Below are positions 3,425 through 12,320 of a stretch of 64,000 nucleotides of DNA, piece after piece (within the stretch, counting starts at the first letter, position 1; each line of letters starts with the position of its first letter). Source of the DNA: an uncultured Acidobacteriota bacterium. Its GTDB lineage: Bacteria > Acidobacteriota > Vicinamibacteria > Vicinamibacterales > CAVVIG01. Under the pieces are notes generated by a model, which was given only the letters and a program-made list of their open reading frames with translations, had not been told where the DNA came from and ran no database searches. The stretch spans positions 40,524-104,523 of the forward strand of contig CADEDC010000007.1 of NCBI GenBank assembly GCA_902825985.1, in the 5' to 3' direction. The translations under genes and the position numbers were made by a program.

Positions 3425-4291
3425 ATGGCGTTCACCACTCTCGTCGACGTGCGAACCGCCGCCGGGCTGCTCGGGCGTGCCGACGTCGCCTTCGTCGACT
3501 GCCGGTTCCAGCTGCATGAGCCCGGTTGGGGCCTCGCGGCCTACCGGTCGAGCCACATTCCGGGTGCGGCCTATGCGGATCTCGATCGCGATCTGTCCGG
3601 AACGAAGACCGGCGAGAACGGCCGCCACCCGTTGCCCGATCCGGACGCCCTGCGCGGGACGCTCGGCCGGCTCGGCATCGCCGGCGGCATGCAGGTGATC
3701 GTCTACGACCAGGACTCGTCGATGTACGCCAGCCGTCTCTGGTGGTTGCTGCGATGGATGGGGCACCGCGACGTCGCGGTGCTCGATGGCGGGTTCGCGG
3801 CGTGGGGTGCGGCGCAGGGTCCCACGCGATCGGGCGAGGAGACGATCGTGATGCGCGCGTTCGTCGGCGCCCCGGATCACACGATGGTGGCGTCGCTGGC
3901 CGAGGTCACCGCGCTCGTGACCGGGCAGGCCGGTGCCGGACCCGGATCGGTGCGACTGGTGGATGCCCGCGCCCCCGAACGGTTTCGCGGTGACGTCGAA
4001 CCCCTGGACAAGGCGGCCGGCCACATTCCCGGGGCGCTGAACCATTTCTTCAAGGACAACCTCGACGAGGCCGGACGTTTCCGGCCCGCCGACGCGTTGC
4101 ACGCCCGTTTCGCGACGCGGCTCGGCACTACCCCACCCGACCGCGTCATCGCGTACTGCGGTTCCGGCGTCACCGCCTGCCACAACCTGCTGGCGCTGGA
4201 GCATGCCGGACTGCCGGGCGGGCGCCTGTATCCAGGCTCGTGGAGTGAGTGGGCGAGCCAGCCCCAGCCGCCGATCGCCACCGGGGATTGA
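3425..4291 (+). CDS. Sulfurtransferase, 3-mercaptopyruvate type, two rhodanese domains
   Basis: A 288-residue tandem rhodanese protein. The N-terminal inactive domain starts with a VDCRF strand-loop, and the C-terminal domain carries the active-site loop CGSGVTA (Cys near residue 242). A CGSG loop is characteristic of 3-mercaptopyruvate sulfurtransferases, whereas thiosulfate rhodaneses usually have CRKG-type loops, so SseA-like activity is favoured. It would move sulfane sulfur from mercaptopyruvate or thiosulfate to cyanide or thiol acceptors in the cytosol. No signal peptide is visible. The stop is followed by a terminator-like hairpin oriented for the opposite strand, so transcription from both sides ends here. 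Confidence 0.9.
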   Translation: MAFTTLVDVRTAAGLLGRADVAFVDCRFQLHEPGWGLAAYRSSHIPGAAYADLDRDLSGTKTGENGRHPLPDPDALRGTLGRLGIAGGMQVIVYDQDSSMYASRLWWLLRWMGHRDVAVLDGGFAAWGAAQGPTRSGEETIVMRAFVGAPDHTMVASLAEVTALVTGQAGAGPGSVRLVDARAPERFRGDVEPLDKAAGHIPGALNHFFKDNLDEAGRFRPADALHARFATRLGTTPPDRVIAYCGSGVTACHNLLALEHAGLPGGRLYPGSWSEWASQPQPPIATGD

Positions 4292-4417: not shown

Positions 4418-5095
4418 TCAGTGGACCGTCTCGCGAATCACGGTCCGCGTCCACTGCTGGGCGTCGCGCGCTCTCCAGTCGTCCTCGACGATCGCGTAGA
4501 GGGTCTGGTCCAGATATTCCCCGTTGCGCAGGAACGACTGCCGCAACACGGCTTCCGGAACGGCGCCGACCTTGAGCAGCGCGGCGTTGCCGCGACCGTT
4601 GCGAACCGCGGCGCGCGCTTCCAGACGATGCACGCCGAGGACGTCGAATGCGAACTCCATCGTGAGCCTGGCGCCCTCGGCGAACACGCCGGTGCCCCAG
4701 TACGGCGACCCGATGGCGAAGCCCCACTCGGCCGTCTCGAAACCTTTCTCGAGTTCGCGAACCTGGAAGATCCCGATGGCCGCATCGGAGCCTTCGACGG
4801 TCACGGCGAAGCACACGTAGGTGCCGGCGGCCCGCTGACGCTGCGTCCACGCGATGAAGCGTTCGAAGCCTTCAACGGTCGACGGCGGCGGCGAGATGAA
4901 GCGCGACACTTCTTCGGTCGTGAGCATGGCGAACAGCGACGGCGCGTCGCTGATGCGCAGCTCCCGGAGGGTAACCTGGTTGGACGTCAGCACCGGCAGT
5001 GCCTGCCGCCAATCCGTGGTGGTCACCTGTTCGGTCGGGCACCCCATCTGGAAGATGCCGCCGTCGAGCTCGGCGCGATATGGCATCTTTTCCAT
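4418..5095 (-). CDS. GNAT N-acetyltransferase, RimJ/RimL type
   Basis: A 225-residue acetyl-CoA-dependent N-acetyltransferase. Family marks include the LRELRISDAPSLFAMLT start of the domain near residue 40, AEWGFAIGSPYWGTGVFAEGA for the beta4/acetyl-CoA pyrophosphate region, and VLGVHRLEARAAVRNGRGNAALLKVG for the C-terminal helix-strand. This subgroup acetylates ribosomal-protein N-termini or small amines; the substrate here is unknown. Its ATG is only 2 nt after the stop of the secreted subtilisin gene, so the two are probably one transcript. A clear terminator follows. The pairing is odd, since a secreted protease and a cytosolic acetyltransferase have no evident shared pathway. Confidence 0.85.
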   Translation of the reverse strand: MEKMPYRAELDGGIFQMGCPTEQVTTTDWRQALPVLTSNQVTLRELRISDAPSLFAMLTTEEVSRFISPPPSTVEGFERFIAWTQRQRAAGTYVCFAVTVEGSDAAIGIFQVRELEKGFETAEWGFAIGSPYWGTGVFAEGARLTMEFAFDVLGVHRLEARAAVRNGRGNAALLKVGAVPEAVLRQSFLRNGEYLDQTLYAIVEDDWRARDAQQWTRTVIRETVH

Positions 5096-5097
5096 GA

Positions 5098-7227
5098 CTA
5101 GAGACCCCCGTCCACGAGTTCGAAGAGGTCTGCGGAGGGTGCTTCGAGTTCGGCTTCGACGTCAGCGACCGGTTCGGTCGCCGAGTCGGAGAACAGCAGG
5201 TCCGGCGTCTGCCCGTCACTGCTGCCCCAGACGATGTTGTCGTCACCGTTGGTGCCCCAGACGATGTTGTCTTCGCCGTTGGTGCCCCACACGATGTTGT
5301 CGTCGCCCTCGGCGGTGCCCCACACGACGTTGTCGCCGTCGCTGGTGCCCCACACCACGTTGTCGCAATCGCCGCCACCGCAGTCGGTGCCCCAGACCAC
5401 GTTGTCGTCGTCGCCCGAGGTGCCCCACACGACGTTGTCGTCACCCGAGGTCCCCCACACGATGTTGTCGTCGTCGGTGGTGCCCCACACGACGTTGTCG
5501 TCGTCTGACGTCCCCCAGACGATGTTGTCGCCGGAGGCGTCCTCGGTGCCCCAGACGATGTTGCCGGAGCCCTCTTTCAGCGTGCCCCACACCACGTTGT
5601 CGCCCGTGTCGGTCTCGGCAGCGCCCCATACCATGTCGGTCGCCCAGGCGTTGGCGAGCGGGCTGAGATAGCCGCCCTTGATCAGGCGGTTGCCCCAGAT
5701 CACGCTCTTGCTCCAGCCGGCCTGCGTCGGCATCACGGATCCGACAGCGTTCAGGCCGTAGAAGCGGGAGAGACGCACGGCGCCCAGCGTATTCAGGAAG
5801 CCGGCGCCCTGCTGCAGCGGCTTGTAGCCGTTGTAGGTCTGCGCCGTGTACTGCAGGATCGCCTTGATCATGTTCGGCGTCAGGCTCGGGTTGGCCTGCA
5901 GCATCGTCGCGACGGTTCCGGCAACGACCGGCGCCGCCATGCTGGTTCCGCTCAGCGACAGGTAGACATTGCTCGCATGGCTGCCATTCGAGAGCGACGA
6001 TGCCTTGGTCGTGTACATCGTGCTGCCCGGAACCGACAACGAGACCGTCCCGGTGCCCGGCGCGATGAGGTCCGGCTTCGCGAGGTAATCGTACTTCGTC
6101 GGACCGGCCGAGCTGTAGTTGGCCAGCAGGTCGTCGCGGCGGGTGGTCGTCCCCTGCGTGCTGGAGGCGCCGACCGTCAGGACCCACGGCGCGTTGCCGG
6201 GAGCCGTGATGCTGCCGTACTGCTGGCTGCCGTCGCTCGCCTTGCCGAAGTTGCCAGCGGCCGTGACCACGGTGATGCCCTGGTCGGTGAGCTGTTTCGC
6301 GGCGAGGGTCAGCGGGTCGGTCCAGTAGGACTCGCTGATCCTGGCGCCAATCGACAGGTTGACGACCCGGATGTTGTACGTGTGCGCGTTCACCGCGATC
6401 CAGTTCATCGCCGCGATGACGTTGCTGATGGAGCCGCCGCCGTTGGCGTCGAGCACCTTCAGCACGACGAGGTGCGCGCCCGGCGCGACACCCGCCTTCT
6501 GGCCGTTCGAGTCGTAGCCGTTGCCGGCGATGATGCCAGCGACGTGCGACCCGTGGCCGTTGTCGTCGTACGGCAGCGTCTGGTTGTTGACGAAGTCGAC
6601 GAATTTCGAGACGCGCTGGTTGCCGTATGGGTAGACCTTGGCGCTCGACCCCTTGGTGAGGTCATTGTGCCAGGCGGTGATGCCCGAGTCGATGACGGCG
6701 ATGCCGACACCGGCGCCCGTATAGCCGAGGCCGTAGCGGACGCTCATCGCACCGATCGTGATGCTCGTGCGGTAGTTGTGGGCGTTAATCGGCCGGTCGT
6801 AATGGACCCGGAAGATTTCGGGCCGGGCTTCGAGCTGGGCCAGCACGCGGTTCGGCAGGTTCAGTTCGATACCGTTGATGAGGTCGAGTTTGCGATCGCC
6901 GCGGGCAAATCGCTTGAACTCTGCCGGCAGCTGGGCGCCCTTGACCAGCGTCACGATGACCTTGGTGCGGCTGTCGGGATTGCCGCGCTTGCGGCGCGTC
7001 AGCTCATCGTCAATCTTGTAGCGGCGGACGTTCCGGCTGGGTGCGCCAGAACGGGCAACGGCGGCCGACTGGAAGTGGCGCGACTGGCGCGCCTCTCGTC
7101 GTCCGTTACGACCGGCAGCCTGAGCCTCGGGAGAAAGACCGAGGGCCAGGATGGCGAGCGCTGTCAGGAGGCGTTTGGGACCCCAGACGGCTTTGCGTCT
7201 GGCTGGGCACGGAATCAACGTTTTCAT
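5098..7227 (-). CDS. Secreted subtilisin-like serine protease (S8) with VWGT-repeat tail
   Basis: A 709-residue exported peptidase. A basic N-terminus, hydrophobic core and AQA site indicate a signal peptide ending near residue 38. An inhibitor-I9-like propeptide (KVIVTLVKG) lies near 90-150. The catalytic domain spans about 160-480, with Asp in AVIDSGI (~180), His in GHGSHVAG (~225), oxyanion Asn in AAGNFG (~326) and Ser in SGTSMAAP (~429). All catalytic residues are present, so it should be active. After a short linker the last ~140 residues are tandem D-N-(V/I)-V-W-G-T units with acidic spacers. The ATG at 7227 is preferred; TTG at 7236 is possible. A low-GC 400-bp gap lies upstream and probably carries its promoter. 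The GNAT gene follows after 2 nt. Confidence 0.93.
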   Translation of the reverse strand: MKTLIPCPARRKAVWGPKRLLTALAILALGLSPEAQAAGRNGRREARQSRHFQSAAVARSGAPSRNVRRYKIDDELTRRKRGNPDSRTKVIVTLVKGAQLPAEFKRFARGDRKLDLINGIELNLPNRVLAQLEARPEIFRVHYDRPINAHNYRTSITIGAMSVRYGLGYTGAGVGIAVIDSGITAWHNDLTKGSSAKVYPYGNQRVSKFVDFVNNQTLPYDDNGHGSHVAGIIAGNGYDSNGQKAGVAPGAHLVVLKVLDANGGGSISNVIAAMNWIAVNAHTYNIRVVNLSIGARISESYWTDPLTLAAKQLTDQGITVVTAAGNFGKASDGSQQYGSITAPGNAPWVLTVGASSTQGTTTRRDDLLANYSSAGPTKYDYLAKPDLIAPGTGTVSLSVPGSTMYTTKASSLSNGSHASNVYLSLSGTSMAAPVVAGTVATMLQANPSLTPNMIKAILQYTAQTYNGYKPLQQGAGFLNTLGAVRLSRFYGLNAVGSVMPTQAGWSKSVIWGNRLIKGGYLSPLANAWATDMVWGAAETDTGDNVVWGTLKEGSGNIVWGTEDASGDNIVWGTSDDDNVVWGTTDDDNIVWGTSGDDNVVWGTSGDDDNVVWGTDCGGGDCDNVVWGTSDGDNVVWGTAEGDDNIVWGTNGEDNIVWGTNGDDNIVWGSSDGQTPDLLFSDSATEPVADVEAELEAPSADLFELVDGGL
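5216..5634 (-). repeat. Tandem VWG repeats in the protease tail
   Basis: Thirteen copies of a VWG(T) unit lie in tandem with a spacing of about 9-16 residues. Most read DN(V/I)VWGT, and the spacers are Asp/Gly/Ser-rich. One spacer is DCGGGDC, which contributes two cysteines. The coding DNA repeats the block CCCCA(C/G)AC(C/G)A(C/T)GTTGTCG on the plus strand. A divergent IWGN unit lies just before the array. Repeat number may vary by slippage because the units are near-identical at DNA level. Confidence 0.95.
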
Positions 7228-7605
7228 ACGCACCAAGAGAGAGCAACCGGTACGCCAGCTGTGCCTTTCGGAGTGAATCTCTCATCTCGTTTATTGTGAG
7301 CTGTTTACAGACATTGAAAAATCACGCATCGGCACCAACTGCCCGTCGACCGTGTGCCGTCCGGGTACAAGCTCTGGCGCGGGATGACGGAAACGCCAAA
7401 ATCATTAGGAAAACAGCCCAGTTCAGGCTCGTGTTCTAAGCGAGTACACAATTCCTAAAATAGACCACGCAAACAGACCTCAATGTCAGTCCTTGTCATA
7501 TACAGACTCTTATTTGTCTTTGTGGGCGTATTGCACGAAAGAACACGACGCTGCACACACGGGGAGTTGGGCGAGCCAGCGCCGGGGCGCGTGAGCGGCG
7601 TGAGT
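7228..7605. other. Gene-free, lower-GC spacer upstream of the protease
   Basis: About 380 bp between the protease start and the end of metH. It is noticeably richer in A/T than the surroundings, especially 7300-7560. No ORF in it has family-like sequence. It probably holds the protease promoter. On the minus strand a TTCAAT-N17-AATAAA arrangement near 7285-7315 is a weak candidate. No known riboswitch consensus was recognised. Confidence 0.5.
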
Positions 7606-7641: not shown

Positions 7642-11331
<3,690 letters not shown>

Positions 11332-11342
11332 GGATGTGCCTT

Positions 11343-12320
11343 TCACGAGGTGGCGGTGGCCACCTTCGTCGGGGAGATCGGTTTCACGCCGGAGGCGATG
11401 AGCACCGTGAACGGGTCGCCGCTCTTGCGGGCGCCGACCGCCACCTTGATGTCGTGCAGTCCGTTCGCGACGAGCATGTCGCGAAGCGCGGTGTCGCGGA
11501 AGCCGAGCGAGCGGTCGCCGAGCTTGCTGCGCACCCACTCTTCCTGGTGTTCGCGCAGATCGAGAATCAGCACCCGGCCGCCGGGGCGCGTGATGCGCAC
11601 CGCCTCGGCGATCGCCGTCTCGGGCTTGCCGGCATGATGCAACGCCTGGGACAGCAGGGCGACATCGACCGACCGATCCTTGAGCGGCAGGCGTTCCAGC
11701 TCGCCCTGCTTCCACACGACGTTCGCGATGCGCCGACGGCGGGCCAGCGCGCGGGCGCGGTCGAGAACCGCGGCCGAGCGATCGACGGCAATCACCCGCC
11801 TGGCCCAGCGTGCCGCTTCGATGGTCAGGAACCCTTCGCCGCAGCCGAGGTCGGCGACCTCGAGCGGCGGCAACAGCATGCCGAGGGCGCGAGCCCAGGC
11901 CGCCCAGCTGCGCCCCGGCACCAGCTGCCGGGCGTCACGGGAGTCGGCCGTGCCGTGCGTCTCGAAATTCTCGGTCCGCAGGCGCAGCACCTCCTGCAGC
12001 CGCGCCTCGTCGGCGCGCACCGCCGGGTCGCCGGCCGCCGCCGCGAACTGGCGCTCGAGCACCTCCCAGAGAGGGCGGCGGTCGCCGTCCTGCAGTGCGG
12101 CGGCGAGCCGATAGTAGGTGAAGCCGGCGTCCCGTTCCTCGGTGACCAGCCCGGCCTCCTTCAGCAGCCCGAGATGCCGCGACACGCCGGACTGCGCCAG
12201 TCCGAGCACGCCGGTCAGCTCGGTCACGTTCAGCCGCTCGCGCTGCAGCACGCGAAGCAGGCGCAGACGCGCCTCGTCGCCGAGCAGCTTGTAGAGGGCG
12301 GACGCGTGCTTCATATCCAT
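11343..12320 (-). CDS. ArsR-family regulator fused to a SAM methyltransferase domain
   Basis: A 325-residue fusion. An ArsR-type winged helix occupies residues ~1-85 ([15 protein letters not shown]; recognition helix [19 protein letters not shown]). After a linker comes a class I methyltransferase domain from ~150 with an intact SAM site ([10 protein letters not shown]) and acidic loop (IAVDRS). The ArsR metal-binding CxC motif is absent (ELTGVLG), and only one cysteine is present, so arsenic sensing or ArsM activity is unlikely. It sits first in an operon with metH and has a paralog beside ahcY. This fits a SahR-like regulator of the methionine cycle that senses SAM or S-adenosylhomocysteine through the methyltransferase fold. 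That role is inferred from context and from known SahR proteins. The start ATG overlaps its own probable operator, suggesting autoregulation. Confidence 0.88.

Follow-up and report, generated by a model that had tools for sequence, protein, structure and literature searches.

A subtilase gene in the window, i.e. the whole 64,000-nucleotide stretch of Acidobacteriota DNA that was analyzed, ends in an array of 13 Trp-Gly units, and homologs of this tailed protease are paired with a small set of downstream genes across the phylum. The computations show a repeat with a hexapeptide register and a spacing rule, a tail that is confined to a single clade of subtilases, the gene pairing and the exchange of partners. 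We suggest, at a probability of roughly 40%, that these belong to an undescribed phylum-wide Acidobacteriota module, in which a subtilase with a Trp-type hexapeptide solenoid and an exchangeable partner would link extracytoplasmic proteolysis to acetylation or c-di-GMP. Neither the Trp-type hexapeptide tail nor its phylum-wide GNAT/MASE9 pairing is present in the libraries and the open-licence literature searched. Acidobacteriota are widespread in soils, and many of their subtilases have roles yet to be assigned; if the pairing is functional, it ties an exported protease to intracellular acetylation or c-di-GMP control in a testable way, and the Trp-Gly hexapeptide provides a recognizable signature by which metagenomes can be searched for the module.

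The exported subtilase and its coupled acetyltransferase

The subtilase ORF is intact, with a TTG at position 7236 as alternative start, and the encoded protein matches the Pfam subtilase model with an E value of 9.9e-51 (Table 1). The catalytic Asp, His and Ser are D180, H225 and S429, which are invariant in alignment A2, and the closest solved structure to the catalytic domain is that of Thermococcus Tk-SP (PDB 3afg). In the AF2 model, calculated with 23 relatives, the catalytic core had a pLDDT mostly >80, and a propeptide-like region at about residues 72–150 was folded as well, with pro-subtilisins as its best matches. The cleavage site of the signal peptide was read from the sequence by eye, after the hydrophobic N-terminal segment. 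Judged by its catalytic motifs, predicted secretion signal and putative propeptide, the window protein belongs to the S8 subtilases, and the protease itself is an ordinary family member (MEROPS S8A).

Table 1. Coordinates of the subtilase and acetyltransferase features in the window
Feature	Position	Strand	Basis
Exported S8 subtilase with Trp-Gly repeat tail	5098..7227	-	ORF; 709 aa from ATG; Pfam PF00082
Signal peptide (predicted)	7117..7227	-	n-region motif RRKAVWGPKR and AQA-A-type cleavage site
Peptidase S8 catalytic domain	5824..6717	-	PF00082 match over residues 174-471 (TTG numbering)
Array of 13 VWG units, [DG]N[VI]VWG[TS], with acidic Gly-rich spacers	5212..5643	-	sequence; one predicted strand per unit
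Two-cysteine spacer DCGGGDC	5365..5385	-	DCGGADC/DCAGADC in orthologs (alignment A1)
Acidic C-terminal segment	5098..5211	-	last codons GAC GGG GGT CTC TAG, likely Shine-Dalgarno of GNAT
GNAT acetyltransferase (Acetyltransf_3, RimJ/RimL-like)	4418..5095	-	PF13302 E 4.7e-25; RimL-type PDB relatives

In 17 tailed subtilases the signal-peptide n-region keeps a WG motif (RRKAVWGPKR or a variant of it) right before the hydrophobic core; the carriers of this motif include the window protein, L043, L044, L052, L061, L062, L067, L068, L105, L108, L109, L111, L115 and L124, it is present even in distant MASE9-linked subtilases, and it echoes the tail motif. A reading of the protease as part of the anti-phage system IetAS was dropped, as the IetS models match through the generic subtilase part alone (NCBIfam IteS_antiphage, 55 bits against a cut-off of 900); no AAA partner was noticed beside the window gene.

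The GNAT start codon lies 2 nt past the protease stop. In orthologs the protease stop and GNAT start often overlap (TAATG, TGATG), and GGL/GGGL protein ends go together with GGAGG-type sequences and with TAATG/TGATG/TAGTCATG at the gene junction. Stop/start overlap together with a putative ribosome site within the last protease codons indicates translational coupling of protease and GNAT, as read from the sequences. The conserved C-terminal Gly-Gly-Leu follows from the GGAGG-type ribosome site encoded there; GGGL as a sorting signal was rejected, since the GNAT Shine-Dalgarno explains it better. Tandem duplicates of the protease–GNAT pair were found at L043, L044, L052, L064 and L066. The gene order metH, subtilase, GNAT, rhodanese (window 3425..4291 (+), 4418..7227 (-), 7642..11715 (-)) is retained in L043, from a related genus, where the subtilase–GNAT pair is doubled.

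Distribution and partner genes of the tailed subtilases

S8 matches were obtained in 108 of 149 genomes across the phylum, many of them with VWG tails of differing spacing, and the relatives lie in Acidobacteriota, several in Vicinamibacterales. The initial annotation had allowed for the repeat being absent from all related proteases; instead, it marks a whole Acidobacteriota subtilase clade, and the tree, which is unevenly sampled, with DNIVWGT loci picked by motif, separates tailed from tailless subtilases (SH-aLRT 89). Spread beyond the phylum was considered and dropped, because the 'Acidimicrobiia' loci (L073/L074, VFZL MAG) are G237, of the window's genus, and the 'Cyanobacteria' records (L052/L066, JAIEMQ MAG) are G167, of the window's order; both titles appear to be mistaken. 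On plasmids, all S8 matches were of the generic kind and spanned roughly half the query length.

A partner gene, counted as GNAT (two families), MASE9 membrane protein or HD-GYP, or sigma-54 activator, lies directly downstream in 54 of the 71 tailed subtilases with context versus 0 of 20 tailless ones (Fisher 2e-10), while 17 of the 71 have no recognized partner. Part of the counted loci had served as training data for the neighbor HMMs; with those excluded, the counts were 32 of 49 versus 0 of 20 (p 3e-7). The tailless set comprised 20 truly tailless proteins, since the initial controls (L125–L144) mostly carried hexapeptide tails, many without W, and were reassigned to the test group. Among 560 background genes, the window-type GNAT occurred in 1 and MASE9 in 9. 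The tail is confounded with the clade, so the pairing may be a property of the clade and not of the tail.

A second GNAT family, unrelated to the first and in some cases with a weak DUF4081 match, lies downstream of L127–L131 and L137. The other downstream partners are MASE9-like proteins (stand-alone or with a fused HD-GYP or histidine kinase), HD-GYP-GGDEF proteins and sigma-54 activators. One such locus, L041 2908..10150 (contig C5 of the window's own genome), holds a TIVWGS-tailed subtilase, a MASE9-HD-GYP-GAF gene and a TPR/sigma-54 activator in this order on one strand. When the search was run outward from the GNAT, 52 of the 67 loci with context in the window's taxonomic order had it directly after a VWG tail and 4 beside MASE9/HD-GYP. 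Protease-free GNAT homologs pair with MASE9-HD-GYP (L181–L184, and L186 in the own genome), and hence protease, GNAT and MASE9-HD-GYP are mutual neighbors. The protease tree requires partners to have switched between GNAT and MASE9/HD-GYP at least 6 times.

Two members of the second-GNAT branch, L128 (3332..5896 (-)) and L131 (1422..4031 (+)), carry, after the signal peptide, an N-terminal region resembling ClpB/ClpA nucleotide-binding domain 1 (NCBIfam E 4e-17 on L128). It gave no Pfam AAA match and apparently represents an exported, degenerate Clp-like domain, judging by the NCBIfam similarity.

The window's own genome encodes three further VWG proteins, i.e. two subtilases (C5, TIVWGS; C20, RVVWGD) and a short exported protein on C79 (G000:C79:20059-20337; L004 1327..1812), which has six DNIVWGT units without a protease domain and is the only clear non-protease carrier seen. 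This stand-alone secreted protein, together with the secretion of the protease and its regular, Trp-containing units, would suit a tail for surface attachment or self-association only, in which a sticky solenoid holds a nutritional protease near the cell and the neighbor is coupled for expression alone. But a digestive enzyme would not be expected to keep a long-lived association with MASE9-type proteins and with two GNAT families unrelated to each other, and tailless subtilases lack the pairing (0 of 20), so we consider attachment alone unlikely, if still a serious candidate.

The Trp-Gly unit and the fold of the tail

The 13 VWG cores of the window protein comprise eleven VWGT, one VWGS and one degenerate MVWGA; when the same residues were shuffled 20,000 times, no shuffle held more than 4 VWG. 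The units are spaced 10–14 residues, the net charge of the tail is about −31 over 144 residues, and the two-cysteine spacer sits at the corresponding unit across orthologs (alignment A1). The initial annotation of a 13-copy VWGT tail on a secreted subtilisin, with regular units and one spacer holding two cysteines, is thus borne out, and so is its remark that no named domain has this pattern: Pfam, NCBIfam and PDB sequence searches gave no significant match for the W-type array, and the open-licence literature yielded no description of a VWG motif, or of a subtilisin with a hexapeptide/beta-helix tail or MASE9 link.

The DNA of the units had been called nearly identical and their copy number easy to change. 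The 8-codon cores do share a mean DNA identity of 82%, but where codons specify the same residue their third positions match in 77% of comparisons, against 49–74% (by residue) expected from the codon bias of the gene, and so the likeness between units is largely protein constraint and codon bias, plus older multi-unit duplications of 105–135 bp; Tandem Repeats Finder reported multi-unit periods of 105 and 135 bp with about 80% match. Between species, copy number ranges from about 6 units in the congener L124 through 13 in the window to >20 in L014 and L123. Easy change of copy number is only partly borne out, because the position of the Cys spacer is fixed in orthologs. A stretch of 45 residues that takes in the Cys spacer is repeated exactly, in tandem, in the tail of L046/L014, which indicates that arrays grow by multi-unit duplication.

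Across homologous tails, the base unit is xx[VIL]WG[TSND], arranged back-to-back or split by inserts. Among 839 units, spacing 6 accounted for 229 cases and was among the commonest, spacing 7 occurred once and longer spacings peaked at 10–11, giving a rule of 6 or at least 8 that argues for a hexapeptide as the base unit. Some tails consist of near-perfect tandem hexapeptides (TLVWGD x16, GALWGD x20). At the corresponding position, sister subtilases carry DGYLWA, DAVMWS, DGVIWG or GALWGD, and then W-less units such as DGVLVS, DGVLIG and DGTLLA, in which W is swapped for I/V/L (e.g. DGVLIG), with DGVIWG and DGYLWA as intermediates. The W-less tail of L128 scored 39.7 bits against the Pfam Hexapep model PF00132, above the cut-off of 27, and also matched LpxD-type helices (NCBIfam E 1e-8); those of L130 (26.7 bits) and L140 (25.8 bits) fell slightly under the PF00132 cut-off. 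In the Pfam searches neither the window protein nor the W-type tails matched PF00132, and the Trp-Gly hexapeptide would constitute a beta-repeat class missed by the domain libraries searched.

Given its continuity with the W-less sister tails that match Hexapep, a modified hexapeptide solenoid is the probable form of the W-type tail. The regular strands expected by the initial annotation do appear in the AF2 model of the window protein (calculated with 23 relatives), where almost every unit is given a short strand, at low confidence (pLDDT ~50); single-sequence AF2 on the isolated W-hexapeptide tail of a relative gave a pLDDT of 34 and no usable model, and on these values the fold is not established. 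A classical left-handed helix may not have the room for three Trp in each turn, so that the W-type is perhaps not a canonical left-handed beta-helix (LbH).

The low AF2 confidence on the tails, together with tandem duplications in some relatives such as the exact repeat in L046, would also fit a flexible low-complexity linker without defined structure, grown by replication slippage. Against it stand the strict spacing, the clade-wide retention of WG, the conserved Cys spacer and the divergence of third positions between window units, and we regard such a linker as rather improbable.

Calcium binding, raised in the initial annotation, lost ground. An RTX-like roll folding on calcium outside the cell would read GDDN-I-V-W-G-T as close to GGxGxDxUx with one extra residue, in line with the acidic Asp/Gly spacers of the window lineage and a weak NCBIfam RTX match (E 0.13). 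However, PF00353 reached an E value of 4.8 only, on the tail of one relative, many homologous tails lack the Asp of the DN pair (NVIWGT, SVVWGT, TLVWGD, GALWGD), some DN-type spacers are basic (L055) and the period is 6 plus inserts, not 9, leaving the roll very improbable. Even less credit goes to a multicopy precursor, whose protease would cleave its own tail into Trp-Gly peptides read by the MASE9-type membrane protein: near-perfect hexapeptides inside a protease and beside membrane sensors would suit it, but the variable spacers of the window lineage and the conserved disulfide-type spacer fit a structural role, and no recurrent peptide transporter or modification enzyme was noticed alongside.

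Proposed module and comparison with known systems

The reading that we tentatively prefer is a tail acting as a beta-solenoid or stalk that positions the subtilase in the envelope, with the protease as the outer arm of a regulatory module shared with a GNAT or MASE9-type partner. Hexapeptide-type beta units, lengthened by inserted loops in the window lineage, would form the rigid solenoid or stalk, which would place the subtilase in the envelope or assemble it there. The extracytoplasmic arm would then be the protease. Its inner counterpart would be the cytosolic GNAT, apparently coupled in translation in the window; in other branches this role would fall to a MASE9 membrane sensor, either by itself or joined to HD-GYP, GGDEF or histidine kinase. 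We infer the solenoid fold, the envelope location and either signaling from the protease to its partner or control of the protease by that partner, as well as the biochemical step of the module. The six-residue unit, the Hexapep-matching W-less relatives, the coupled GNAT and the alternative MASE9/HD-GYP partners extend beyond the initial annotation.

With S8 subtilases such as Tk-SP, the window protein has in common a signal peptide, a propeptide-like region and a complete Asp-His-Ser domain, but differs by its C-terminal VWG array, which no model or solved chain covers, and by the coupled GNAT. With hexapeptide/LbH proteins (PF00132; LpxA/LpxD-type acyltransferases) the tail shares the six-residue unit and the [LIV]-G-x-x-[STAV]-x register, whereas it lacks the acyltransferase active site, carries Trp at the large-hydrophobic position and is fused to an exported protease; in addition, the window array has inserts between most units, and W-type arrays have no PF00132 match. 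The window lineage resembles RTX repeats (PF00353) in D-x-[IV] followed by Gly-rich turns, but the tail differs in its period of 6 plus loops, its extra Trp, an Asp that is not family-wide and the lack of a significant model match.

Systems of the LapG/LapD type are c-di-GMP-controlled periplasmic protease systems, in which the LapG-type enzyme is a cysteine protease. Here the protease is a subtilase, HD-GYP/GGDEF proteins with MASE9 stand in place of LapD, the window lineage has a GNAT instead and no adhesin was identified. The MASE9-HD-GYP branch likewise ties an exported protease genetically to an inner-membrane c-di-GMP protein.
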